This document shows, in pieces, positions 1,460 through 19,137 of a DNA stretch of 28,240 nucleotides. The stretch covers positions 1-28,240 of IMG/VR virus record IMGVR_UViG_3300032462_000056; one strand, 5' to 3'. The translations under genes and the position numbers were made by a program. The notes beneath the pieces are model-generated. The model was given only the letters and a program-made list of their open reading frames with translations. It did no database searches and was not told where the DNA came from. The stretch is from a virus. Position 1 is the first letter of the stretch, and each line of letters begins with the position of its first letter.

Positions 1460-2899
1460 TTATATATTAAACAACCAACGCTTCTTGCCACAATCCCAAA
1501 TTCTTGCCAATCCTCTTGCATGTGCCCAATCATATTCTGTCATGCCTTCTGGACAATTCACAACGCCTTTCTTTTGACTTTGCTTGCTGATGCGTTCATT
1601 AGGTTTCTTAATGTCAACATAACTGTAGTCTGGATTGTAATCCTTGACCATTTCAAAGTTTAATGCAAGGTAAACTTTGCCAAGACTCCAGCGATTGTCG
1701 CTAAAACTGATTATTTCTGTATGACCTCTGTCTTTTGCCCAAGAGACACATTTTGAAAACAACTTGCTTGCACCACCAGTAATCTGAAATCCATGTTTGA
1801 AGCAAAGTCTGTCTAACACAAGAGCATTGACTTGACGATTGTGACGACCAAGAGACATGACTCCAATAAGCTCTGAATCATGAAATAAACCAAAGAAAAC
1901 AACTCCAAGATTATTCTTTCCTTGAATGTGATAATCGCTAAAAAACCTTCTCCCAACTTCTTTGTCAATTTCTTCAACAATACATTTTCTTGCATAAAGT
2001 CGTGTGTCATTGATTCCTAAAATTGATTTTATATGTCCTTTACATTGCAATTCTCTTTTCTCCCATTCATCTGAGAATATTGTTAAAAGTTGAACGCCTT
2101 GTTCTAAACATTTTTTGTATTTGTTATGATGATATTTATTGTTTCGTGATGCAGATGAAAATTCATGGTGCCAGTGTAAACCACAATACTCTATTCCTAA
2201 TTTTCGATCATCATCATAAATGTCAATTTCAAAACCGGGTATTAATTTCCTTGTCGAACTGAAATTGAATCCAAAAGAGTTTAACCATTCTTCAATGCTC
2301 TTTTGTGTTTTTCCATAATTATTGGCTGGGAATTTTCCAAAATTTGCAACACAAGTATCCATTGCTTTTTTTCTTAACTCTGGATCTTGTAGAGCATGTG
2401 ACACTCCGTAAATTGACATTAGCGTTTGTTCTTGTTTGTTTTTAATATCCTTGTTCTGAGTTGGATTTGATGCACCGTACTTGTCTTGTATAATTTTCTT
2501 TATTTTGTCTTTAATATCAGAGTTTTGAAAAACATTATCAGTTCCATAACGCTCCCGACATGTTTTATTTTGTTTTTCTTTAATACGAGCATTTTGCATA
2601 GGATTTTCAACGCCGAAGGCTTCCAGATTAGTCTTGGCTATCTTATCTTTTATTTCTTTATTTTGGAAAGCATTGTCAGTGCCAAATACCAATTTATTGG
2701 TTTTTACTCGTTTCTTTTGTATACATTTTTTATCACTACAACTGTCTGATTTTATATGTTGCCATGATCTTAAAATATTGTTTTTGAGTCTATCGAAAAC
2801 ATTACCACAATAATCACACTGACAAACAATCTTTGCTTTCTTAGAAGCTTCTTCAAACTGTTTGCCAAGTTTTTCAAATGTTTCTTTTTCTAATATCAT
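1460..2899 (-). CDS. Homing-type endonuclease, Vsr-like EDxHD class with DUF723-type repeats
   Basis: A 479-residue protein. Residues ~26-60 carry Cys pairs (CDYC, then C54 and C59) that look like a zinc finger. Residues ~70-190 hold about five copies of a YG-x-x-N-x-x-QN-x-x-IK-x-K unit, as found at the N-terminus of phage homing endonucleases (DUF723 type). Residues ~220-280 contain PGFEIDIY, then GIEYCGLHWHHEF and later LLTIFSDEW, matching the very-short-patch-repair fold of EDxHD enzymes such as I-Bth0305I. The last ~150 residues resemble an acetyltransferase-like domain that often follows this core. The ATG at 2899 is chosen because it overlaps the HNH gene's TGA as ATGA and has AAGGAAA upstream; a longer start at 2935 lacks these. 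Likely role: DNA cleavage promoting its own spread. Target site unknown. Confidence 0.75.
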   Translation of the reverse strand: MILEKETFEKLGKQFEEASKKAKIVCQCDYCGNVFDRLKNNILRSWQHIKSDSCSDKKCIQKKRVKTNKLVFGTDNAFQNKEIKDKIAKTNLEAFGVENPMQNARIKEKQNKTCRERYGTDNVFQNSDIKDKIKKIIQDKYGASNPTQNKDIKNKQEQTLMSIYGVSHALQDPELRKKAMDTCVANFGKFPANNYGKTQKSIEEWLNSFGFNFSSTRKLIPGFEIDIYDDDRKLGIEYCGLHWHHEFSSASRNNKYHHNKYKKCLEQGVQLLTIFSDEWEKRELQCKGHIKSILGINDTRLYARKCIVEEIDKEVGRRFFSDYHIQGKNNLGVVFFGLFHDSELIGVMSLGRHNRQVNALVLDRLCFKHGFQITGGASKLFSKCVSWAKDRGHTEIISFSDNRWSLGKVYLALNFEMVKDYNPDYSYVDIKKPNERISKQSQKKGVVNCPEGMTEYDWAHARGLARIWDCGKKRWLFNI

Positions 2900-3648
2900 G
2901 ATATTTCCTTTATAAATGTAACTGATTTTAGCCATAATTTTAATTCTGACATAAAGTCTTCATCAAGTTTATCCATCTTCATTACATTTATCCAAAGATG
3001 AACAAATCGTAAATTAACAATATCATGAGTGCCACCTTTGGATAAAGGAATAATATGATCAAGTGAAGCTGTGTCGCCAAGTATCAATGGATTGTTTGTA
3101 ACAGCACACAATCCATGTTGAGATTCGAAAAGATCACATAATTCTTGATGGCGATTTCTCGAACCAAAATGATTTGCTGATAAATTTTTGAAGAAACAAA
3201 TTCTACAAGAATTAACAGATTCCAATGATTGGCTTTTCCCACAATAAACACAAATTCCATTAGTTTTACGTTCGATGTATTCTTGCCTTTGTTGTTCTTT
3301 TTGTTTTGAAAAACATTCAGCACATAATCGTTTTAATGATTGGTCTCGTTCCTTTCCACAGGCAGTACACAAACCTTGTTGGATTCTAGTATCAGTTACC
3401 TTTTTTGACTTTTTTCTATTGTTCAACATATGTTTTTCACAATAGACATGATTTTCTACGACTTTACTAAGGCATCTTCTACATGTGCTTTTTTCATCTC
3501 TCTTTTGATGAAATTTTATTTCATATTCTTTTATCTTATTAACACAAATTTCACATGTTTGTCTTCCTGCATGAAATGTTCTTAAACCACATCTGAAACA
3601 CAATCCTTGTGACAAACGTTTTTCTTTTGTTGCTTTAGAAACTCCCAT
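2896..3648 (-). CDS. HNH endonuclease with multiple zinc-knuckle pairs
   Basis: A 250-residue protein. The first ~155 residues hold a series of CxxC pairs (C17/C20, C32/C35, C56/C59, C94/C97, C109/C112, C133/C136, C148/C151), predicting three or four zinc ribbons for DNA binding. Residues ~180-225 form an HNH nuclease core: LDHIIPLSKGG supplies the DH pair (H198), followed by N212 in IVNLRFVH and a downstream Asn/His. A homing or group-I-intron-associated role fits the family and the position next to the capsid gene. The start has AAGGAAT upstream. It is coupled by ATGA to the Vsr-like endonuclease, making a two-enzyme operon. Confidence 0.8.
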   Translation of the reverse strand: MGVSKATKEKRLSQGLCFRCGLRTFHAGRQTCEICVNKIKEYEIKFHQKRDEKSTCRRCLSKVVENHVYCEKHMLNNRKKSKKVTDTRIQQGLCTACGKERDQSLKRLCAECFSKQKEQQRQEYIERKTNGICVYCGKSQSLESVNSCRICFFKNLSANHFGSRNRHQELCDLFESQHGLCAVTNNPLILGDTASLDHIIPLSKGGTHDIVNLRFVHLWINVMKMDKLDEDFMSELKLWLKSVTFIKEIS

Positions 3649-3878: not shown

Positions 3879-5330
3879 CTAAATTATGAAATTAGCAATC
3901 GACATTCTTGCGTAAAATTTAGCTCCCTCACGCAGCAACTTTTTCCCATACCGAGTTAAAATTCCTTTTCTTGGACAGAATGATTCTGGGTCAAGAACAA
4001 CTGGCGTTTGAGTGAGTGGTACGTATGGGCAATAAAAATAGCCACTGTCCATGTAAGAGTCACCCTTATACCCCATCAGGATCTGGCCCTGTGGGAAGAG
4101 TGGATCTTTGTACAGTCTCCAACGATTATTAATAGTACCTACGTACTGAATACCCAAGCTACTTGTGAAGGTTTCTGAAGGTGCCGGTGCGAATCCTGCT
4201 GTTGCAGTTTCGAACACAGACGCAACTTCAGGAGAAGTGACAAGCCAGTTACATCCGCCACGGAGGGTCTTACGATGAACGACGTTAGAAACTTCAACAA
4301 CCTTAACATACAGAGACTCGTACTTCTCTTTGATAGTATCCCCTAGTGCTGTGTTGAAGTCCCACACTGCGATAGTACCTGCGTTGTTACGAAGGTCTGT
4401 CAACACTTCACGATCGATTTCGAGGTTAATTTCCTGAGCAAGAACTGCTGTGAGTTCAGCTTCGGCATCAAGGTTGTGTTGTGATCGAAGATCTTGTTGA
4501 GCTTCGTATGACCAAACAGCCTTTAGCTTACGTGTCTTAGCGGCAATTTCTTCCGATTCGACAACGAGGTTAACTTCTGGAAGATCTTGGTTACATTCCA
4601 TGTTGTATTCGTAAGAAGTTACAATACGGTTTGCACCCGGATCATTATTCCATGACATTGTCATTTCGCCAGTCACTAGATCAAGAGTTCCACCAGTAGC
4701 CTTGTTGGCTGGTGCTCCAATATCTGTGAAGGTGAATGTTCCGCTTTCTGCAACGACGAAAGTCTGAACGGCAACAGAGCCATCATAGATAGTTCCTGTC
4801 ATTGTTCCGGCGAGAACTGGAGTGTGTTCCAGAGGAGCATAGATTGAGTTGGTGTCTCCACCAGCGTCAGTGCTAGATGTTTCGTTCTGGATGAACTGGT
4901 GTGTGTAGAAGATATCAAGGTTGCCATCACCAGAGGCCAACTGCTGCAACGATGTTGCGTCGTCAGATGGATAGCCGCTGTTCAGATCGGCTCCTCTCAT
5001 TGCTCCCTTGTTGCTGCTATATCGGAATCTCAGGTAGTACACCAAACCTGTTGGACCGAGCAGAGGCTGAACGCTAACAACTTTGTTGGCGATCAACTGT
5101 GGATAAATACGACGAACAAGTGGAATTGAGATTCTCTTGAACTGAGCGATGTCACCGGTATCGGTCATAGCTTCGTTCATAAGTCTCTGATTTTCCAGAA
5201 GTACAGAGGCCGTGGCTCTTTCATAGCGGTTGCTGATGCCATCAAGCATCGACTTACCGTTTCTCAAAGGCTTTGACCATCTGGCTTCAATTTCTCTTGC
5301 TTCGTTTAGATAACGTGCATTAAAAGACAT
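3879..5330 (-). CDS. gp23: Major capsid protein, T4 gp23 type
   Basis: A 483-residue protein that forms the head lattice. The N-terminus has the LLENQ region typical of T4-like capsid propeptides, followed by ISIPLVRRIYPQLIANKVV and the hallmark VQPLLGPTGLVYYLRFRY. The N-terminal ~50 residues are probably removed by the prohead protease; candidate hydrophobic-x-Glu sites are LLE at 44-46 and MNE at 51-53, the latter at the boundary where the conserved body begins. RNA start: AGGG six bases before the ATG. Last gene of the core/protease/scaffold/capsid operon and followed by a strong terminator. Codon choice is less AT-biased than in the accessory genes, as expected for a highly expressed gene. 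Confidence 0.93.
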   Translation of the reverse strand: MSFNARYLNEAREIEARWSKPLRNGKSMLDGISNRYERATASVLLENQRLMNEAMTDTGDIAQFKRISIPLVRRIYPQLIANKVVSVQPLLGPTGLVYYLRFRYSSNKGAMRGADLNSGYPSDDATSLQQLASGDGNLDIFYTHQFIQNETSSTDAGGDTNSIYAPLEHTPVLAGTMTGTIYDGSVAVQTFVVAESGTFTFTDIGAPANKATGGTLDLVTGEMTMSWNNDPGANRIVTSYEYNMECNQDLPEVNLVVESEEIAAKTRKLKAVWSYEAQQDLRSQHNLDAEAELTAVLAQEINLEIDREVLTDLRNNAGTIAVWDFNTALGDTIKEKYESLYVKVVEVSNVVHRKTLRGGCNWLVTSPEVASVFETATAGFAPAPSETFTSSLGIQYVGTINNRWRLYKDPLFPQGQILMGYKGDSYMDSGYFYCPYVPLTQTPVVLDPESFCPRKGILTRYGKKLLREGAKFYARMSIANFII

Positions 5331-5371: not shown

Positions 5372-6268
5372 TTATCTGGACTCTTGTAGTCCAGAAAGTA
5401 CCAGAAGATCGGTTAGGGGATCAGAGCCTTCCATCAGGTACTGATCTTTGCCTTCCGAATTTGGTGCGGCGTATTCAGACATGATCTGATCGGCACCAAC
5501 TCTATTGCCACGCCCACTTGCATTCTTTACTTTGCTTGCTCTTTCTTTTCTTTCTACTTTAGCTGCTTCTGTCAGCAAGCCATTAGCTTCACGAACTTGC
5601 TCATTGAGCTTGTTATTGTGAGCCGACAGTCTGACATTCTTGGCTTCAACAATTCGGATTTGTCCTTTGATGAATTCCAATTGCTTATGTGTTTCTTCGA
5701 TCTTGGCAGAAGAGACTCCTCCGAGATCGTCATTATCAATATAGTCTGAAAGCATTTCTGCCATCTTGGAGACAACAACTCTATGTTCTGCGATGCGTGG
5801 ATCGCTAAGAACATCACGTTTAGCGTGTTCGTAGATTTCTTCTTCTTGGAGACCAAGGAACTGATCGACTTTTTCAACCATGAATTCCTTCATCTCATGC
5901 AGCTTCTTGTCGAACTCTTCGTAGAGTTCTACTTCGATGCCGCCATTCTTGCCTTTTTCTCCCTGAAGTTCTTGGTAGGCTTCTTCGAAACCTTCTTCAA
6001 GAGCGGTTTCGAATTCTGAACGCTGTTCGTCAAGTCGTGTCATCAATGAGCCAATAATTTCATAGGCTTGTTGATAACCTTGTTCGGCTACGATTTCTGT
6101 ACGAGATTTTTCATCTGAGATTTGAGAGTAAGCTTCTTCAAGCTTGCTCTGGAACTCTGATTCCAGTCCCTTATATTGTTCAGCCATCATATCTTCCACG
6201 GCTTTGCGAACCTCGTTCACATGCTCAGCCGGGAGGATCTTCTTCAGTGCTTCTGTGATCTTGTCCAT
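5372..6268 (-). CDS. gp22: Prohead scaffolding core protein, T4 gp22 type
   Basis: A 298-residue, highly charged, helix- and coiled-coil-rich protein (many Glu/Lys/Gln heptads through residues 20-235) with a C-terminal tail rich in Gly/Asn/Asp. Length, composition and place between the protease and the capsid gene match T4 gp22, the internal scaffold that is degraded by gp21 during maturation. Its ATG shares one base with the protease stop (TAATG). No catalytic motif is present. Assignment rests on synteny plus composition rather than on a sharp sequence motif. Confidence 0.85.
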   Translation of the reverse strand: MDKITEALKKILPAEHVNEVRKAVEDMMAEQYKGLESEFQSKLEEAYSQISDEKSRTEIVAEQGYQQAYEIIGSLMTRLDEQRSEFETALEEGFEEAYQELQGEKGKNGGIEVELYEEFDKKLHEMKEFMVEKVDQFLGLQEEEIYEHAKRDVLSDPRIAEHRVVVSKMAEMLSDYIDNDDLGGVSSAKIEETHKQLEFIKGQIRIVEAKNVRLSAHNNKLNEQVREANGLLTEAAKVERKERASKVKNASGRGNRVGADQIMSEYAAPNSEGKDQYLMEGSDPLTDLLVLSGLQESR

Positions 6269-6960
6269 TAGTTTAACCTCGACTTAATTTTATCTGCTTG
6301 AGATTTCACAAAGCCGCCTAAACAAGCGATCAATGCTTCTTTGTTAACGGTATCTATGCTGCTGGTCTCATTTTTGTTAACTGTTTTAGCAACTTCTTTG
6401 CGAAGTGATTCTTCACGAGAATGAATCACACTTTCTTTCTTACTTGTTACTTTTTCTTGGAATGCTGAGAAAGTGCTAGGATCAGCAACTGCATCAAAGG
6501 TAATAAGTTTATAACTTTCACCAATAACTAAAATGCCATCTTCATTAACTTTCCCATTGCCCACCCCTCGTGAGCTAATTCCGACTTTCACCCCATCTTC
6601 AATTAAAGCTTTTAGAACTTTACCGTGAGGTGTGTTAAGAATTTCTCCTTCGCCCATTAAGATGTTGCCTTCCCACCATAGTTTAGTAACAATGTGAGAT
6701 GCGTTAGCGAAGTGTATAATACTATCAGTAGGATGATCTAGTTCTCCGATAAGTCTGCGATCAGAAATAGCTTCTTGCAGACGACTCAGATTTTCATCAA
6801 GAACATCATACGGATACATTCTTTTATTTTTGTTGATCGCCTCTGCTTCTTGGAACTTACCTCTAAACTTCACGAGACCCTTACTTGATGTAGTGCCTTC
6901 GTGAAGTTTAAATTCGAAGCCGGAGTGCGTACAACAATCGACTAATAACATTTCATCCAT
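6268..6960 (-). CDS. gp21: Prohead maturation protease, T4 gp21 type (S80)
   Basis: A 230-residue serine protease. The family signatures are all visible: KNKRMYP near residues 44-50, the catalytic His in GELDHP (H76), the catalytic Ser in GISSRG (S129/S130), and ITFDAVADPS near 153-162, which carries the acidic position. In T4 the enzyme cuts scaffold, capsid propeptide and packaged internal proteins at hydrophobic-x-Glu sites. The Ser/Thr/Lys-rich C-terminus (~170-230) is likely the self-removed part. The start has GGAGTG six bases upstream. Confidence 0.92.
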   Translation of the reverse strand: MDEMLLVDCCTHSGFEFKLHEGTTSSKGLVKFRGKFQEAEAINKNKRMYPYDVLDENLSRLQEAISDRRLIGELDHPTDSIIHFANASHIVTKLWWEGNILMGEGEILNTPHGKVLKALIEDGVKVGISSRGVGNGKVNEDGILVIGESYKLITFDAVADPSTFSAFQEKVTSKKESVIHSREESLRKEVAKTVNKNETSSIDTVNKEALIACLGGFVKSQADKIKSRLN

Positions 6961-11743: not shown

Positions 11744-14290
11744 TTACGATTCGCTCCGATCAATTTCTTCTTCATCGATTTCGGAATCGAAATTTTGAAT
11801 GTCGAGGTTGAATTTTTTGATATCTTCATGATCTGGTGTTGGAATAGGATTTCCTGATCCTGATATTGGCGGAGTGTCTTGAGATGGCATTTCCATGTCT
11901 TCTCCTCCATCATCCATAAATTTCTTCATTCCTGCTGGTGGAGCACCGGGTGCTGGTGGTTGTCCTCCAGCATCTTGGCCAAGCATTGGATTTGGTCCAC
12001 CCGGTTCTGTTCCGATTTCTTTATCATCTGGACCCGGCAAACCAACGCCTAACAATGTTGGATTCTGAGCAATAATTTGCAATTTGAGATCATCCAATTT
12101 CTGTATTTTAAGTCTAGCCAACATTTTAGACACTTCCTCTTCTGGATATTTTAAAAACTTGGTGAGGATGTCAAAATCACTCATTAGTTGCGATCCTTTT
12201 AAGTTTGAGGCATTACCGAGACGATTGGTAAGAACTTCTGCTCTTGTTAGTTCTCTCCAATCACTAGGTGCTGTCATTTTTACAGCAAGATCTTCATATG
12301 CCTCTTCTGGATATCCAAGAAGCTTCAAATGACGATCACAAATTTCCCAGAATGCGTCTTCGATGTGACTTTGGAATCTTTCAATCATGCGAGCAAATTT
12401 AACATCTTGAGCAGATAAAGAGATTCTTGTACTTTGAGCATCTTCATTGTTGAAGTAATTCTTTGGGAAATTCAATGCTGTAAACAATTTATTCCTGAAG
12501 TAAACTGTGTCATCAATTTCTCCGAGATTTTGAGCACCGGGCAATGTTTCAACACGAGTATTTGCATTGGCACGAATTGGAATCCAATAATCCTCATCCG
12601 CAGCCGGTGCGTGCCATCTTTCTTCAACAGAAGATGCTCCCGGTCCACCACGATTACTTGCAACTTTTTTCTTTTTGAACTGATCTTTCATTCTATCAAT
12701 AAAGGCTTCAGCTTTGTAAGGCGGAAGATTTTGCACATCGATATAGAACACACGTCTTTCTGGTGCTCTTGTCAATCTGTAGACCACCATAGCGTCTTCC
12801 ATTAATCTTAATTGGTGTGCAGGTCCACGTGCGGCTTCAATTAATGACACGCCATAAGGGTAGAATGTCTTGCGATCATCGCCTATTTTAATGTGAATGA
12901 TTTGTTCTGGAGCGAATCTAACGGCTGCGGCTTGTTGTAAATCGGCATCTGTTGCTTGAGTGATTTCAACTTTAGCCAAACTTTCATAATCAGGACCTTC
13001 TTTGCTCTGCTGGAACTCAATAAGTTTGCCTTTTGTTGATTCGATTCGATACATGCTATCGGCTGGCAACGGAACCAAATTTAACACACCGTCTTTTGGA
13101 TTTTCTGGATCAATTACGATTTCCCAAAAGAAATCACCCATGATGAACAATTGCTTTGCTGCATTCCAAATTTTCTTCTGATCGAAATTTAGCATTTTGC
13201 GATGAAATAGTAGGTATTCAAGTTCATCTTTGATTTCTTGACTGGCACACTCGACAGCCATGACTCTTCCTTCATCGTCTTTTTGACAATTATGTGCAAC
13301 GCCCCAGTTGGTGCAGAAGTTCTTATGTTTTTCAACAGATATATCATATACATCAATTTCTTTGTGCTGTTGAACACCAATAACTCTACGACGATCAGAT
13401 TTTTTTCCAAGCCACTTAATTTCTCGATTTGAGAATCCAGCACGTTCGATTCTGTTTCTTATAGTCTCAAAGTCATTTCCTGTAAGTTGCGTAATTTTTC
13501 GTACAGATAATCCTTCAGAAATCATACGGCAATAACTATTGACGATCTCTAAGTCTTCTTTTTGTCTTCCCGTGCTCCACTCATCTACAAATTGTCTTTC
13601 GTGAATCCAACCTTTGTCGTGTGTCCATATTCTAGGAAATTGATTTGTCTTTTGATTTGTGAATTCTTGACGAGCAGCTAGTCTGTAGAATGGCATCAAT
13701 TCTGATCCATACTCTAATTTTCCTGCATCTAACCAAGATCCGTCTATCAACATAATCAAATGGTCTGGAGTGCAAATAAAGTAATTGCCATCATCCAGCA
13801 TAATTCTAATTGTATTGGCACGTTTTGTTTTCCTTGGATTGTATGCCCATCCAAGCGTATAATCTTTCTTGTTTGAATCGTAACAGTAAACTAAGAATCT
13901 TTCATCTTTAAGGTTCTCAGCAAGCCACTTAAGGGTAACTGTTCCATAAGATGGAGTTTCAACTTTTGTTTCGCCAGCAAAGCAGGCTTCGTCTGCAAAA
14001 ACAGTCATAGCCATTTCTATTTCTGCCATATTTCTAAGTCGTTCATATTCTTTATATCTATGAATGCGATTTGTTACAGTCGAAAGATCTACAAAATCGT
14101 TTGTATCTCGCAAGCGAACTGATCCTCGACCACTACCGCCTGAAAACCCGTCCTGTCCGCCACGAATATCTGGTATAGCATCAGGTTGTGAAGTACCAGC
14201 ACCACCCATATCTCTTCGACTTCGCTTTGTAAGCGGATCTTCAGTGAATGCGTAAGTGAATATTTTGAAAAAGTCCCACCAAGCGGCCAT
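11744..14290 (-). CDS. gp20: Portal protein, T4 gp20 type, with in-frame intein
   Basis: An 848-residue precursor; removing the intein (residues 103-334) gives a 616-residue portal. Extein signs include the early motif IHRYKEYERLRNMAEIEMAM, QLFIMGDFFWEIVIDPENP, VEVxxx-type threads and the wing/stem region with QDVKFARMIERFQSHIEDAFW. The portal is the dodecameric ring at the head vertex through which DNA is packaged by the terminase. The C-terminal ~110 residues are Pro/Gly/Asp-rich and likely disordered. AGGGAG lies seven bases before the ATG. In T4, gp20 is 524 residues, so this one has extra tail sequence. It has its own upstream region with the shared late element. Confidence 0.92.
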   Translation of the reverse strand: MAAWWDFFKIFTYAFTEDPLTKRSRRDMGGAGTSQPDAIPDIRGGQDGFSGGSGRGSVRLRDTNDFVDLSTVTNRIHRYKEYERLRNMAEIEMAMTVFADEACFAGETKVETPSYGTVTLKWLAENLKDERFLVYCYDSNKKDYTLGWAYNPRKTKRANTIRIMLDDGNYFICTPDHLIMLIDGSWLDAGKLEYGSELMPFYRLAARQEFTNQKTNQFPRIWTHDKGWIHERQFVDEWSTGRQKEDLEIVNSYCRMISEGLSVRKITQLTGNDFETIRNRIERAGFSNREIKWLGKKSDRRRVIGVQQHKEIDVYDISVEKHKNFCTNWGVAHNCQKDDEGRVMAVECASQEIKDELEYLLFHRKMLNFDQKKIWNAAKQLFIMGDFFWEIVIDPENPKDGVLNLVPLPADSMYRIESTKGKLIEFQQSKEGPDYESLAKVEITQATDADLQQAAAVRFAPEQIIHIKIGDDRKTFYPYGVSLIEAARGPAHQLRLMEDAMVVYRLTRAPERRVFYIDVQNLPPYKAEAFIDRMKDQFKKKKVASNRGGPGASSVEERWHAPAADEDYWIPIRANANTRVETLPGAQNLGEIDDTVYFRNKLFTALNFPKNYFNNEDAQSTRISLSAQDVKFARMIERFQSHIEDAFWEICDRHLKLLGYPEEAYEDLAVKMTAPSDWRELTRAEVLTNRLGNASNLKGSQLMSDFDILTKFLKYPEEEVSKMLARLKIQKLDDLKLQIIAQNPTLLGVGLPGPDDKEIGTEPGGPNPMLGQDAGGQPPAPGAPPAGMKKFMDDGGEDMEMPSQDTPPISGSGNPIPTPDHEDIKKFNLDIQNFDSEIDEEEIDRSES
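13289..13984 (-). other. Mini-intein inserted in the portal gene
   Basis: Residues 103-334 (232 aa) of the portal precursor. Block A starts at C103 (CFAGETKVETPSYGTVTLKW); block B has CTPDHLI with the T-x-x-H residues; block F is DVYDISVEKHKNF; block G ends GVAHN, and the first residue after it is Cys (C335). All splicing residues (N-terminal Cys, B-block His, penultimate His, terminal Asn, +1 Cys) are present, so splicing is expected. The middle (~211-300) has GWIHERQFVDEW and a helix-turn-helix-like stretch (ISEGLSVRKITQLTG) but no complete HNH or LAGLIDADG motif, so the homing nuclease appears lost or degraded. The flanking exteins FADEA and CQKDDE rejoin into a continuous portal sequence. 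Confidence 0.9.
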
Positions 14291-14393: not shown

Positions 14394-14693
14394 ATGAATT
14401 TTTGGATTATAAGAAATCATAAGAGACAAAATGACATCATAATCTATTATTTGATGTCTTATTCCCCGATAATTAGCATCGGTCTTAATTTATATTTAAG
14501 ATTTAATCATACAATTGAAGTTATTTGTAATGGAAGCCATTTTTTAATTGTCCGTAATGACAAACAATGGCATATCAGACTGGCAAACAATTCTGTTCAT
14601 GTTTTGGGAAAATTTGGATCTGACAACTTTTGGAAAGATTTAGATTCAGTAGTTTACAGCTTAATGACAATTAAAAAATCGAAGGATGAATGA
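14394..14693 (+). CDS. Hypothetical protein (99 aa)
   Basis: No family recognised. The first ~45 residues are hydrophobic and aromatic (IIIYYLMSYSPIISIGLNLY) but interrupted by charged residues, so a clear membrane helix is doubtful. AAGGAG lies six bases before the ATG. Its TGA overlaps the next ATG (ATGA), so both are co-translated. It is an isolated plus-strand pair inside the minus-strand virion block, typical of a late insertion. Confidence 0.65.
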   Translation: MNFWIIRNHKRQNDIIIYYLMSYSPIISIGLNLYLRFNHTIEVICNGSHFLIVRNDKQWHIRLANNSVHVLGKFGSDNFWKDLDSVVYSLMTIKKSKDE

Positions 14694-15100
14694 AAAAAAC
14701 ATTGTTCCTTATGACTCATCCCGGATCTGGATGGCAAAATTTAGTCAATATATTGAATTCAGACCCAAGAATAGAGATTTCAATGACAGGGCTAGAATAT
14801 CATCATCCTGATGATATTGATTACTTAACCAGACAGCCTCACAAAAGTTCTAATTCGGTTGCTATCTGGGGCGATGTTCTTTTACATAATCAAAACTTTA
14901 CCTGTCAATCACTTTTCAATCACAGCTACTTTATATTTTTGCAGTCTGAATTTGATGTAAATCATCCAGACTGGAAATCATATACAGATGCCTTTTCTTA
15001 TTACCGATTGCGACTGTCTGGAATGAATCAATATTTTCGCAGAGCATCTAAAACAATGTGGAATCCTGTTGTTGAAGAAATTGCTGCACTTTTGAATTGA
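14690..15100 (+). CDS. Sulfotransferase-like small protein
   Basis: A 136-residue protein. KKTLFLMTHPGSGWQNLVNIL looks like the first strand and PAPS 5'-phosphosulfate loop of sulfotransferases (usual form YPKSGTTW), and SYFIFLQSEFDVNHP lies where the 3'-phosphate-binding strand would be, but without its Arg and Ser. At 136 residues it is about half a normal sulfotransferase, so it may be a truncated or highly diverged member, or a P-loop-like protein of another kind. Coupled to the 99-residue gene by ATGA. Possible link to the surface-glycan genes nearby is inference. Confidence 0.55.
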   Translation: MKKTLFLMTHPGSGWQNLVNILNSDPRIEISMTGLEYHHPDDIDYLTRQPHKSSNSVAIWGDVLLHNQNFTCQSLFNHSYFIFLQSEFDVNHPDWKSYTDAFSYYRLRLSGMNQYFRRASKTMWNPVVEEIAALLN

Positions 15101-15141: not shown

Positions 15142-15690
15142 CTAAATTTTTATTTTTTTCTTAGTTCCATTTTTAGATGAGAACACAACATAATCAGCAG
15201 TGAATTCTTTGCCTTTCCATTGATTAATTCCATGATAATTCCATCCCTTACCTTTTTTTACATAGGCAAGAGTGATATGCGGTTTGTATTCTTTATATTT
15301 GTTCGTGAATTCAATATTGTCTGTGAGTTTGTTGTTTAGTGACTTGAGTTCATCGCTGATAACTTTAATGACTACAACATCAAATTTCTCTGGATTTGTA
15401 AATACATCAATTTCTCCAAGTTTGACGGAGATGGGTTTTATGCCGGAAATGTATTTTGATACTTGCTCGGAGGAGTCTGCGTGAATTCCATAAAGAACAG
15501 TTACGTGCATTTCGTCTTCTCTGCCAAAACCAGCGTCTGTTTGACTTACGAATATATCTGAATCTTTAATTTTGTTTTTACCCCATTTAATTAAGTCGCT
15601 AGCCAATGGATCTGGAACATCTATATGTGTTGACGAATAGTCATATTTTATATTTTGCATTTCGAAGAACTTTCGGAATTGATGCCTCAT
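15142..15690 (-). CDS. 2H phosphoesterase (2'-5' RNA ligase-like)
   Basis: A 182-residue protein with the two H-x-T motifs of the 2H superfamily: MHVTVLYG (H62, T64) and PHITLAYV (H138, T140), about 75 residues apart. These enzymes open or form 2'-5' or cyclic phosphodiester bonds in RNA or cyclic oligonucleotides; T4 Acb1, which destroys CBASS signals, has the same fold and motifs. The N-terminus MRHQFRKFFEMQN resembles a capsid-targeting leader. The ATG at 15690 has no ribosome site; TATACAT lies just upstream, so a leaderless message is possible (a second ATG at 15660 also lacks a clear site). Transcription is separated from the upstream gene by a strong terminator. Confidence 0.8.
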   Translation of the reverse strand: MRHQFRKFFEMQNIKYDYSSTHIDVPDPLASDLIKWGKNKIKDSDIFVSQTDAGFGREDEMHVTVLYGIHADSSEQVSKYISGIKPISVKLGEIDVFTNPEKFDVVVIKVISDELKSLNNKLTDNIEFTNKYKEYKPHITLAYVKKGKGWNYHGINQWKGKEFTADYVVFSSKNGTKKKIKI

Positions 15691-15703
15691 AATGTATAAA
15701 TGA

Positions 15704-15731
15704 AAAAAGCTCCGAAATTTCGGAGCTTTTT
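15704..15731 (-). terminator. Intrinsic terminator after the Pro/Gln-repeat gene
   Basis: A perfect 28-base palindrome whose half is AAAAAGCTCCGAAA (15704-15717). On the minus strand GGAGC is followed by TTTTTT. It ends the terminase operon just before the 2H phosphoesterase gene. Confidence 0.85.
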
Positions 15732-15758
15732 GCTGTAGTTAATTAAAGTAATTCTACA

Positions 15759-16838
15759 TCATTCTAAATCGTCAGCCCAGATATTTTTATTATAACGCCA
15801 TTGGTCTTTCCAAGCGGCCAAATTATCAGCGGAGATTTGTTGAGGTGTCGGTGGAATTCCTTGATCATCGTCATCATCAATCGGTATGTATTCGATTCTA
15901 TCAGCGTAGCTTTGTGGAGGCGTTGATGCTTGTGTCGGTGGAATTTCTGCTCGTTGTTTTTTCCAATCTCCGAAATAATCCTTGGCTGCTGGTGGAGCCT
16001 GTGGTGGAGTTTGTGGTGGAGTTTGTGGTGGAGTTTGTGGTGGAGTTTGTGGTGGAGTTTGTGGTGGAGTTTGTGGTGGAGTTTGTGGTGGAGTTTGTGG
16101 TGGAGTTTGTGGTCCAAAAGCTGCATTTTGATCAAATTTTCCTTCGTCTTGTTGGATTTTAAGCTTTTCTGCGTAAGCATTTACTTTGTCCACAAATCCT
16201 TTGGCTAATTGATATCCTACAGAGTCTCTATTATTTTTGTATTTTTCTACCACTCCAGACATAGAGTCATTAAATGATTTTTTTATAGACTTCATTGCTT
16301 CCCCAACTTTAGCTTGTGAGTTTGCACTTAATGGTGGTCGTGGTGGTCGTGGTGCTTGAGGAGGAGATTGTGGTGTTTGAGGAGGAGATTGTGGTGTTTG
16401 AGGAGGAGATTGTGGTGTTTGAGGAGGAGATTGTGGTGTTTGAGGAGGAGATTGTCGTGTTGCACCGGGTTGTCCAGCTTGTTGTGGATTAAAGAAATTT
16501 CCAGCGTTTTTACCAAGTTGTGATCCAGCAAAACCTTGAGCCGCTCCCATAGCAGCCCCTCCAAGAGCTTGACCTGCGGCACCAACAGCTTGACCTGTAG
16601 GAGAATTTTTAACTCCATTCCACAAACCGCCCCAATCCCAAGAGCCGGGATTCCATCCTTCAATCAACTCTTGTTCGTTACAAGCTCCGCCATTAATAAA
16701 GAACGGTAGTCCATGTTCGATCCAGAATTGATCAAAAGTCATGCCAGATTCAATTATTGCTAAACACAGACGATCGTATTTTTGACCGAATTCAACAATT
16801 TCACGATCTTCTCTAAAGTTGTTAAAAGATTTGTACAT
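15759..16838 (-). CDS. Pro/Gln-repeat protein, function unknown
   Basis: A 359-residue protein. It begins MYKSFNNFREDREIVEFGQ, a possible capsid-targeting leader, followed by a folded segment to ~residue 60. Residues ~65-115 are Gly/Ala-rich (GQAVGAAGQALGGAAMGAAQ), a pattern seen in membrane-active or flexible segments. Two Pro/Gln tracts follow: five 7-residue units (SPPQTPQ) and ten 4-residue units (PQTP), separated by a charged helical domain of ~70 residues (SIKKSFNDSMSGVVEKYKNN). The tail is acidic (IDDDDDQ). GGAGA precedes the ATG. Probably a structural or internal virion protein, from its place in the terminase operon; no enzyme motif seen. Confidence 0.8.
   Translation of the reverse strand: MYKSFNNFREDREIVEFGQKYDRLCLAIIESGMTFDQFWIEHGLPFFINGGACNEQELIEGWNPGSWDWGGLWNGVKNSPTGQAVGAAGQALGGAAMGAAQGFAGSQLGKNAGNFFNPQQAGQPGATRQSPPQTPQSPPQTPQSPPQTPQSPPQTPQSPPQAPRPPRPPLSANSQAKVGEAMKSIKKSFNDSMSGVVEKYKNNRDSVGYQLAKGFVDKVNAYAEKLKIQQDEGKFDQNAAFGPQTPPQTPPQTPPQTPPQTPPQTPPQTPPQTPPQTPPQAPPAAKDYFGDWKKQRAEIPPTQASTPPQSYADRIEYIPIDDDDDQGIPPTPQQISADNLAAWKDQWRYNKNIWADDLE
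15991..16110 (-). repeat. 12-bp minisatellite, ten units
   Basis: Ten head-to-tail copies of GGTGGAGTTTGT (plus-strand form; the first reads GGTGGAGCCTGT). They encode PQTP nine times plus PQAP. Being 12 bp, copy changes keep the frame. Confidence 0.95.
16351..16455 (-). repeat. 21-bp minisatellite, five units
   Basis: Five nearly identical 21-base units (plus strand begins GGTGTTTGAGGAGGAGATTG) that encode the 7-residue repeat SPPQTPQ. Frame-neutral, so length variation would only change the tract length. Confidence 0.95.
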
Positions 16839-16878: not shown

Positions 16879-17253
16879 TCAATCTTGAAAAAGTTGATCT
16901 TTTGAATTCTCTTTTATTTTTGATGATTTGGTTTCAATTTCATCAATTTTAGATTGTTCTTTGTCGATCATTCCGTTTAGTTGATTTAAACTTTTTTGAC
17001 AAGCTTCTAAACTCATAGCACCGAGTGGCACTCCTGATTGAACATTTCCCCACCAATTTTGAAATTGAGATTCAGAAGTTTTTATTTTTTGCATTTGCTC
17101 TTGTGAAACTTCATCAATTTTACGAATTGCTTTTCGAATATCTCTAGTTGCTTCAATAATCTTTTGGTTGTTTGGCATTGAAGATAAAGCTGATTCTAAA
17201 GCTTGTGATAAAAGAGATTTTGTCTTGTCTAGTTGTTTTGATTTTTTGCTCAT
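16879..17253 (-). CDS. Small coiled-coil protein of the terminase operon
   Basis: A 124-residue, mostly helical protein (Lys/Glu/Gln/Ser rich) with two long amphipathic stretches separated by FQNWWGNVQSGVPLGAMSL around residues 68-86. No family recognised. It directly follows the terminase gene and has AGGAAA before its ATG. Small terminase (gp16) is helical and of similar size, but lies before gp17 in T4, so that assignment would be a guess. Confidence 0.75.
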   Translation of the reverse strand: MSKKSKQLDKTKSLLSQALESALSSMPNNQKIIEATRDIRKAIRKIDEVSQEQMQKIKTSESQFQNWWGNVQSGVPLGAMSLEACQKSLNQLNGMIDKEQSKIDEIETKSSKIKENSKDQLFQD

Positions 17254-17286: not shown

Positions 17287-19137
17287 TTAGTGTTGTACCA
17301 ACCAAATGAAAAACAAAATTGCCCAGCCAAATTCACGAATCAACTTATCATTGAATCTTGCATATTCAGATATTGAAGAAGGATTGATATTAAATCCGTC
17401 TTTAAGAAGATCGAAATCATCTGGGTCGATCCATTCATCTGGCGTAGCTTTAGCGAGTTCTCTCTTAATTTCATCATATATTTCTGCTTTGAACTTTTCT
17501 TTATACTCTTCTTCTGATTCTCCCGAACCAATTGGGAGTTGACGCATTCTGGCATCTCTGGCATACAATGCTAAACAAAGTGCCATAATTGCATCATCAT
17601 GGAAACCTTTAGTTGCTTCAGCCCTTTTTGTCTGAGTGTTCCAAATGAATCCTTTTAGCTCTTTAACAAATCTACGACTACGAATAGCAATGCTTTCATT
17701 AATAAGTCTGGTTTGCATTGTTTCCAAGAATTTTGGTCGAGTGCTTCTACTTGTTTTTATTCCAACAGACAATGTTTTGCTATTTCCGCCTTGAGAACAT
17801 TCAAACAGATTTTCATAGAAGAAATCGTGTTGAAGTTTGTCAAGAACTGTAAGACCAGCACTTTGAGATTCAACAATTATAAGAGCATTGTTATACATTC
17901 TGCCAATCATCGCTACAACTTGTGAAAAGTTGTGCGGAGGACATATGTTGCTATAGAATTCAGCAACTTGTTCACAAGTCACTGCATCGATTACTTCAAA
18001 ACAACTATTGTCATTTTCTTCATCCATGCCTTCAGCGGCATCAACTCCAATTATGTATTCTCTGCCATCTATTGGCTCTCTCCAAATATGCAAAGCACCA
18101 CGTTCCCATGTGTCAACGTCTGTAACTCTGTTTTCTCTTGCTTCATAATGATTGTTCCATTGCGGGAACAACATTTTTATTGGTTGAATTTCTTTAGCGA
18201 TGAGATCCAAATTATTGATAATTGAATTTGGAATAAATGATTCACCAGATCCAAGAAAGTCACGAAGAACTTCTTGTCGCCAACCTTTTTCTCCAAGCTG
18301 TGCTCTTGTGGCTTTTACCCAATCTTCATCATCATAATCTGGGTGATCCCAATAATCTAATTCGATAATGTGAAAGTCATTTTGGTTCTTCTCTGCTCCA
18401 GCAAATATGTCATAATACCAGTTGCCAACACCATTAACTGTAGAAATACAAATACAGTGTCCACCGGTACTTATAGTTGGAAACATAGCTTTCCAATATT
18501 TGTCCATATTTGGAATAAACGCAGCTTCGTCAAGAATAAGATATGTGATAGATCGTCCACGAGCAGCTTCTGGTGTATAGAAGAATAATTTACATCCTGT
18601 ATCTGAGAATAGCTTCTGATGGTCGTTATTTTTTTCCATTTCTGGCTTCATCCAAATTGGCAATTCGATTAACGCTCTTTTGACAATTTCGCCAGAAGCG
18701 ATAGCTTCACGGTCAGACTTAGATAAAACCATGATTGTTTCATCTAACTTAAACAAACATCTCCATAAAGACCAAATTACAGTAACTGTAGTCAAACCAC
18801 CTTGACGAAACTTGGACAATATGTTAAATCTATTATTCTCGTATTCTTGAATACAACGTCTTTGATATTTGTACATAACAAATGGCAACAATCCACGTTT
18901 AGGATGGGTAATTTTTACATACTTATGACACCAATATGTAAAAGACATTGCACACTTAACAAGTTCTTTTTGTTGTACTTCTGCTGGATATGCTTCGATG
19001 TCCTCAAACGGCTCCATCGGGTCAATATCAAGTTCGAATTTGTTGAATGAATAGTATTTCTTATCATATTCACGATCATAAAACTCTTTTAGAGTACGAT
19101 ATCGTTTCTTCCATTCAAAATCTATGTCTTCACGCAT
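17287..19137 (-). CDS. terL: Terminase large subunit, T4 gp17 type
   Basis: A 616-residue DNA-packaging motor. ATPase: adenine-binding region around KYQRRCIQEY (90-99), Walker A-like KFRQGGLTT (109-117), Walker B YLILDE (199-204, D203/E204) and the coupling motif CISTVNG. Nuclease (RNase H fold): D365 in IIGVDAAEG, E423 in IIVESQSAG, D514/D515 in FHDDAIMAL, as expected for the three metal-binding acids. The Walker A lacks the usual GKT/S lysine and has Lys109/Arg111 at the loop start instead, a deviant form also known from other terminases. It docks on the portal during packaging. GAGGGGG lies upstream of the ATG. First gene of its operon. Confidence 0.95.
   Translation of the reverse strand: MREDIDFEWKKRYRTLKEFYDREYDKKYYSFNKFELDIDPMEPFEDIEAYPAEVQQKELVKCAMSFTYWCHKYVKITHPKRGLLPFVMYKYQRRCIQEYENNRFNILSKFRQGGLTTVTVIWSLWRCLFKLDETIMVLSKSDREAIASGEIVKRALIELPIWMKPEMEKNNDHQKLFSDTGCKLFFYTPEAARGRSITYLILDEAAFIPNMDKYWKAMFPTISTGGHCICISTVNGVGNWYYDIFAGAEKNQNDFHIIELDYWDHPDYDDEDWVKATRAQLGEKGWRQEVLRDFLGSGESFIPNSIINNLDLIAKEIQPIKMLFPQWNNHYEARENRVTDVDTWERGALHIWREPIDGREYIIGVDAAEGMDEENDNSCFEVIDAVTCEQVAEFYSNICPPHNFSQVVAMIGRMYNNALIIVESQSAGLTVLDKLQHDFFYENLFECSQGGNSKTLSVGIKTSRSTRPKFLETMQTRLINESIAIRSRRFVKELKGFIWNTQTKRAEATKGFHDDAIMALCLALYARDARMRQLPIGSGESEEEYKEKFKAEIYDEIKRELAKATPDEWIDPDDFDLLKDGFNINPSSISEYARFNDKLIREFGWAILFFIWLVQH

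Follow-up and report, generated by a model that had tools for sequence, protein, structure and literature searches.

The window analysed here, a virus record taken over its whole length of 28,240 bases, carries the genes of a T4-type head module, all on its minus strand. The genes identified on that strand are those for the terminase large subunit (gp17-like, 17287-19137), a conserved 124 aa protein encoded between terminase and 2H (16879-17253), a 359 aa PPQTP-repeat protein considered as a candidate internal head protein (15759-16838; N-terminus MYKSFNNFRED), a 2H phosphoesterase of 182 aa with an ATG start (15142-15690), the portal protein with an intein (gp20-like, 11744-14290), the prohead protease (gp21-like, 6268-6960; phrog_207, E 7.7e-51), a 298 aa protein whose gene lies between those of the protease and the major capsid protein, in the place of the scaffold gene (gp22; 5372-6268), and the major capsid protein (gp23-like, 3879-5330; phrog_138, E 1.5e-82). 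A 594 aa protein is also encoded between the portal and the prohead protease. The 298 aa protein has a match in the related locus L005 and no convincing family match of its own. The gp21-type protease, encoded in the same window as the 2H gene, would be responsible for cleaving a targeting leader.

Some other features of this region were recorded. The portal intein (PF14890) occupies residues 154-334, and the related portals are similarly large (about 850 aa); the intein may be old and widely kept. The number of PPQTP repeats varies among near relatives, the protein being 359 aa in the window and 330 aa in L004. Two small genes on the plus strand (14394-15100) lie between 2H and portal, one of which, coding for 136 aa, recurs in almost every syntenic locus though opposed to the head genes. 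Two homing-type HNH endonuclease genes (1460-3648) follow the major capsid gene immediately on its downstream side.

Relatives of the 2H protein were collected by profile scans of IMG/VR and a phage collection, giving about 100 loci (L numbers); in the widest IMG/VR scan 430 stretches were confirmed by tblastn, and the best 80 of these 430 were used. The order terminase-2H-portal was detected in 32 loci, some of them near-duplicates, down to about 40% identity, and in 10 truncated contigs besides, 2H is accompanied by one of terminase and portal. The closest assembled genome, the 595 kb uncultured phage LR756511.1, shows the same order with 40% identity for 2H and 47% for the terminase. Cellular homologues were found on two metagenome-assembled contigs only.

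Immediately before the 2H start codon lies a terminator-like hairpin (AGCTCCGAAATTTCGGAGCTTTTTT) followed by CATTTATA (15695-15740, minus strand), and no clear Shine-Dalgarno sequence was seen ahead of this codon. A similar element of hairpin plus CATTTATA precedes the gene in L003, L004, L013-L015, L020 and L022, and CATTTATA is also present in L018; it is not enriched in the window. The T4 late promoter TATAAATA was rejected as a candidate signal, its two matches in the window being no more than expected by chance and neither being at the 2H gene.

The predicted catalytic residues of the 2H protein are H62/T64 and H138/T140. The first motif, H62-V63-T64 (15499-15507, minus strand), lies inside GREDEMHVTVLYGIH, and the second, H138-I139-T140 (15271-15279, minus strand), inside YKPHITLAYVKKG. 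No exception at H62, T64 or H138 was seen among 78 aligned relatives, and T140 is found in 77 of them; because of this near-invariance, the two motifs are not chance occurrences. The protein matched the Pfam families Acb1 (PF23474, 40.5 bits) and 2_5_RNA_ligase2 (PF13563, 38.0 bits), each with a gathering cut-off of 27, and PHROG 755 'RNA ligase' (57.5 bits), into which T4 Acb1/57B also falls. The top match by phmmer against the PDB was 9q2g, an Acb1-labelled phage enzyme (E 0.0023); no paper on this BCSR5 phosphodiesterase was found in the literature search. The AlphaFold model (pLDDT 92, pTM 0.86), disordered at residues 1-12 (pLDDT below 50), has the bilobed 2H fold, which together with two H-x-[T/S] motifs defines the superfamily. 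By VIA-align it fits Acb1 (7t26) with Z 13.4 over 135 residues at 3.0 A, LigT and cyclic phosphodiesterases (CPDases) with Z 14-15.7, Usb1 with 14.2, MHV ns2 with 12.4 and poxvirus cGAMP PDE with 12.1, the highest values being those of RNA cyclic phosphodiesterases. With its conserved motifs and this confident model, the open reading frame is a complete 2H phosphoesterase of the LigT/Usb1/Acb1 fold. The sequence-only reading, which had placed such an enzyme at 15142-15690 with two H-x-T motifs and a fold common to T4 Acb1, was borne out on all these points. Since the model is close to all 2H enzymes, the fold gives no choice of substrate.

The possible substrate was approached through comparison with Acb1. 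The T4 enzyme acts via H44, T46, H113 and T115, stacks the bases on Y12, W74, F107 and W147, and reads adenine by E141 (Hobbs et al. 2022, PMC9117128). The family profile aligned with 7 Acb1s over both motifs (probability 97.3, E 1.6e-11). F97, present in 77 of the 78 relatives, aligns with W74, a position occupied by F or W in Acb1s. F107 of T4 Acb1 aligns with Y132, where 54 of the 78 relatives have Y or F and 21 have H; Y12 falls outside the aligned region. The stretch Y135-x-P-H-x-T-x-A-Y143 is common to the window protein and Acb1. E141 is present in 7/7 and W147 in 5/7 of the aligned Acb1s. The last 19 residues of the window protein, in contrast, contain no Glu or Trp, so that the E141/W147 lid has no counterpart, and the family carries FSSKxGxK there. 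PF23474 was matched by 79 of 86 relatives at E <= 0.001, but PF13563 matches all the same proteins, and the Acb1 family match is thus not specific. An outright Acb1, as the Pfam match alone would name it, was ruled out for these two reasons, and on sequence the window protein is an Acb1-like 2H that should not be filed as Acb1. The proposal of an anti-CBASS role was upheld in part: resemblance to Acb1 extends over the catalytic tetrad and some of the base-stacking pocket, whereas the lid residues are absent and RNA cyclic phosphodiesterases are equally close, leaving anti-CBASS activity plausible.

The main rival to a nucleotide signal as target is that the 2H enzyme, either packaged or made late, acts on RNA ends, opening 2',3'-cyclic phosphates on tRNA cut by host anticodon nucleases, or working as a Usb1-like RNase, in RNA repair or translation rescue. 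Its appeal lies in the structural Z values to LigT/CPDases and Usb1 given above, in the match to TIGR02258 (RNA 2',3'-cyclic phosphodiesterase; 42.7 bits, residues 23-166) and in an ATP-dependent RNA ligase (PF09414, over cut-off) encoded in 5 of 8 related phage records. The TIGR02258 score, however, is below the curated equivalog cut-off of 65.7, for which reason identity as an RNA cyclic phosphodiesterase was ruled out; the ligase gene is far from the 2H gene in the three records where both were located; RtcB is absent from all related phage records searched; and Iyer et al. state that 2H domains of this type lack linkage to ligases (PMC5512222). Taken together, we regard action on RNA ends as rather unlikely.

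A candidate capsid-targeting leader, MRHQFRKFFE, is encoded by codons 1-10 of the 2H gene (15661-15690, minus strand). Mutagenesis of the T4 IPIII leader MKTYQEFIAE assigned targeting to residues 4 and 7 and processing to residues 8 and 10, and targeting survived a block of cleavage (PMC9026906). In the window leader, MRHQFRKFFEMQ, the paired aromatics of the T4 targeting sequence (aromatic-x-x-aromatic) are kept but shifted by one residue, as F5-x-x-F8 in place of an aromatic residue at 4 and F at 7, positions that are kept exactly in L031, L054 and L079. In place of the processing site [L/I]-x-E at residues 8-10, the window reads F8-F9-E10, its Glu lying one position early. Leaders of standalone relatives include MKTWQQFLQEKK (L031), which resembles the T4 IPIII start MKTYQEFIAEA, MKTWTQFLDEK (L046), MKSWTQFLAET (L079), MLNFKQFLLEK (L054) and MIKKYLEFMKES (L010), and those of the close clade of the window are MRHQFRKFFEM (window), MQRFRKFLEM (L013) and KFRNWLLEM (L021). 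Where a locus has the PPQTP-family gene just upstream of 2H, this gene also begins with a comparable aromatic-x-x-aromatic leader, such as MYKSFNNFRED in the window, MYKTFLEYNE and MTYTKFGTFLEE. The resemblance to a capsid-targeting sequence, claimed at the outset from the window alone, holds for the aromatic pair and for the canonical form in homologues, and fails for the exact [L/I]-x-E site.

The association between leader and family was examined with the pattern aromatic-x-x-aromatic-hydrophobic-x-E, motivated by the IPIII mutagenesis. Among non-redundant sequences, the strict pattern is carried by 11 of 48 standalone 2H proteins and by 19 of 876 further genes from these loci (Fisher p 6e-8); when one residue is allowed to be missing, which brings in the window, the counts rise to 14 and 32, respectively (p 1e-8). 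These p values serve as a guide and not as a pre-registered test, the family leaders having been known before the pattern was fixed and a looser version having been tried first, and the 48 sequences are partly related. As a control, 149 ORFs in 99 kb of T4 gave matches for ipII and ipIII only, and in the related records G001, G004 and G005 the motif was present at 12 of 751 gene starts against 1 of 2705 internal methionines. By these sequence counts, the T4-type leader is statistically tied to the standalone 2H family. In a separate observation, at least six other genes within 16 kb of L009 (LR756504.1 116065-132421) start with [FY]xxF[IL]xE, and huge phages such as this one may package many proteins.

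The leader behaves as an N-terminal module, present or absent among the relatives. It is absent in many of them (L016, L017, L022 and L024), and in L018, L020 and L022 an ATG is located at about the same distance from the conserved CATTTATA but the body of the protein begins directly. This bears on a second alternative, in which the 2H protein is a late cytoplasmic enzyme that is not packaged, its gene riding with late genes and the 10-residue extension being due to chance or neutral. In its favour, many syntenic relatives start without leader at the equivalent of M11 (M-x-N-V-K-Y-D), the leader of the window is non-canonical, and T4 Acb1, although its gene adjoins ipI, was detected in infected cells as an enzyme (PMC9117128). 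Against it, the codons for FRKF[FL]E have changed in L002, L003, L004 and L013-L015 while the amino acids stayed the same; canonical leaders are scattered on the family tree in several separate lineages (8 changes for the canonical label); and direct portal fusions exist. We consider an unpackaged enzyme improbable on this evidence. That the leader is merely untranslated DNA upstream of M11 is unlikely, since FRKF[FL]E persists through synonymous changes.

Among 13 Acb1 N-termini compared, that of Aeromonas phage Ah1 (MLKSFSEFTEA) alone is clearly similar to the leader, and most are without it; T4 Acb1 starts with MMEFKDFS, in which the aromatic pair is present, and its gene is next to ipI. 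The Ah1 protein (L110, 265-759) begins with MLKSFSEFTEANKQD, close to the T4 IPI leader MKTFKEFTST. Some true Acb1s may be packaged too.

The 2H domain was also found in fusions. It is joined to portal proteins in L082 (Phage_portal), L097 (Portal_Mu) and L078 (portal, 2H and a MuF-like domain). Proteins combining two or more unrelated domains, as defines the polyvalent class, are encoded in L008 (Tunturi_5, a Tunturiibacter phage; a large protein with ART-PolyVal, GNAT and SprT), L062 (Eco57I methylase and SNF2), L066 (LPD38) and L083 (SLT and strawberry-notch (SBNO) helicase), while the window protein consists of a single domain and a leader. In a 635 kb phage record (L007, 7989-9305), 2H with the leader MKLKKYKQFIKES is fused to an RNase_T-type exonuclease domain, and in phage proteins of about 410-460 aa (L037, L041, L042 and L093) a nucleoside 2-deoxyribosyltransferase-like domain is followed by 2H. 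A third alternative, that the protein serves the portal vertex structurally or in its assembly, is conserved because head assembly needs it and has enzymatic activity as a secondary property, could draw on these portal fusions and on a position between terminase and portal unusually stable for an accessory gene, but is very improbable given (near-)invariant catalytic residues, needless for a purely structural role, the same domain in enzyme-rich polyvalent proteins and the occurrence of 2H as a separate gene at another place in other phages (L011 and L012).

The best reading of the sequence evidence, to which we give a little less than even weight, is an Acb1-like 2H enzyme that is packaged, injected and directed against nucleotide signals. 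The 2H protein would be a metal-independent phosphodiesterase made together with the head proteins; its short N-terminal T4-type leader would probably direct its loading into the prohead core, and the loaded enzyme would then be injected along with the DNA. Inside the new host it would open or trim a nucleotide phosphodiester by 2'-OH/HxT acid-base chemistry, the likeliest target being a small nucleotide alarm signal, for instance a cyclic oligonucleotide from CBASS or a comparable pathway. What the analysis shows directly is the 2H fold with its intact tetrad, a place in the head module kept in many huge phages, the statistical link of the leader to the family and the portal and polyvalent fusions in other phages. 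Head targeting by the slightly atypical leader of the window, packaging, injection and the substrate are steps that we infer. The main uncertainty lies in the window's own leader, in which the targeting pair is kept and the standard cleavage site is not.

For carriage in the head, where the leader idea turned out stronger than expected, the leader statistics, head-module synteny, the leader-bearing neighbour, the portal fusions and the polyvalent proteins speak in favour and the atypical leader of the window speaks against; on these sequence grounds packaging appears fairly probable. A search of the literature on virion proteomics of 2H proteins found nothing. If the enzyme is packaged, destruction of a nucleotide signal would be somewhat favoured as its function. 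Taken as a whole and in its broad form, the combined proposal falls slightly short of an even chance, and a strictly CBASS-directed version is less likely than that. CBASS often responds late in infection, and early delivery is for this reason not obviously needed.

A wider picture is more tentative: in T4-like huge phages, a signal-destroying 2H nuclease may be pre-loaded via a T4-type leader and may erase CBASS or type III CRISPR alarms from the onset of infection, as a capsid-delivered counterpart of Acb1 that would have evolved in parallel to delivery by portal fusion and by polyvalent proteins. As far as is known, Acb1-type enzymes are synthesised once infection has begun; with a capsid-delivered enzyme, the phage need not out-race the host alarm by new synthesis. 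If a single enzyme domain reaches the particle in three ways, as the sequences suggest, by T4-type leader, by portal fusion and within polyvalent proteins, this would strongly indicate selection for early delivery as such. The leader pattern also provides a simple and testable means to list the injected proteins of uncultivated T4-like huge phages.

The internal proteins of T4 are small basic proteins, and IPI is a restriction inhibitor. The present system resembles IPI, IPII and IPIII in the leader aromatic-x-x-F-hydrophobic-x-E of many relatives and in the adjacent head and prohead protease genes; unlike the T4 internal proteins, the window protein bears an intact 2H enzyme domain. With Acb1 (T4 gp57B) it shares the 2H fold, the HxT/HxT tetrad and Y-x-P-H-x-T-x-[A/S]-Y, and aromatic residues align with the W74 and F107 sites, but it is about 30 residues longer and has a different conserved C-terminus, FSSKxGxK, without the E141 or W147 lid; its gene is located in a head module and encodes a candidate targeting leader, whereas that of T4 Acb1 is beside the tail-fibre chaperone gene 57A. 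LigT/ThpR (TIGR02258) is the closest solved fold by Z and matches over residues 23-166, but the phage family has conserved motifs of its own, GREDE-H and FSSKxG, and scores under the cut-off.

That an injected phage 2H enzyme possibly destroys nucleotide signals is already a published general idea: the text of Iyer et al. (2017, PMC5512222) on these domains describes 2H in polyvalent proteins and in MuF/portal fusions, proposes that such domains are RNases or destroyers of nucleotide signals, and proposes that polyvalent proteins as a class are injected. No paper describing a T4-type leader on a standalone 2H protein was found in a limited literature search. The proteins in that account and the relatives of the window protein belong to the same domain family and have the same predicted role. 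The window protein, in contrast, is small and standalone, with a T4-type leader and in a T4-like head module, a delivery route other than those in the cited text, and by its sequence such a leader on a standalone 2H adds an apparent third route into the phage particle.
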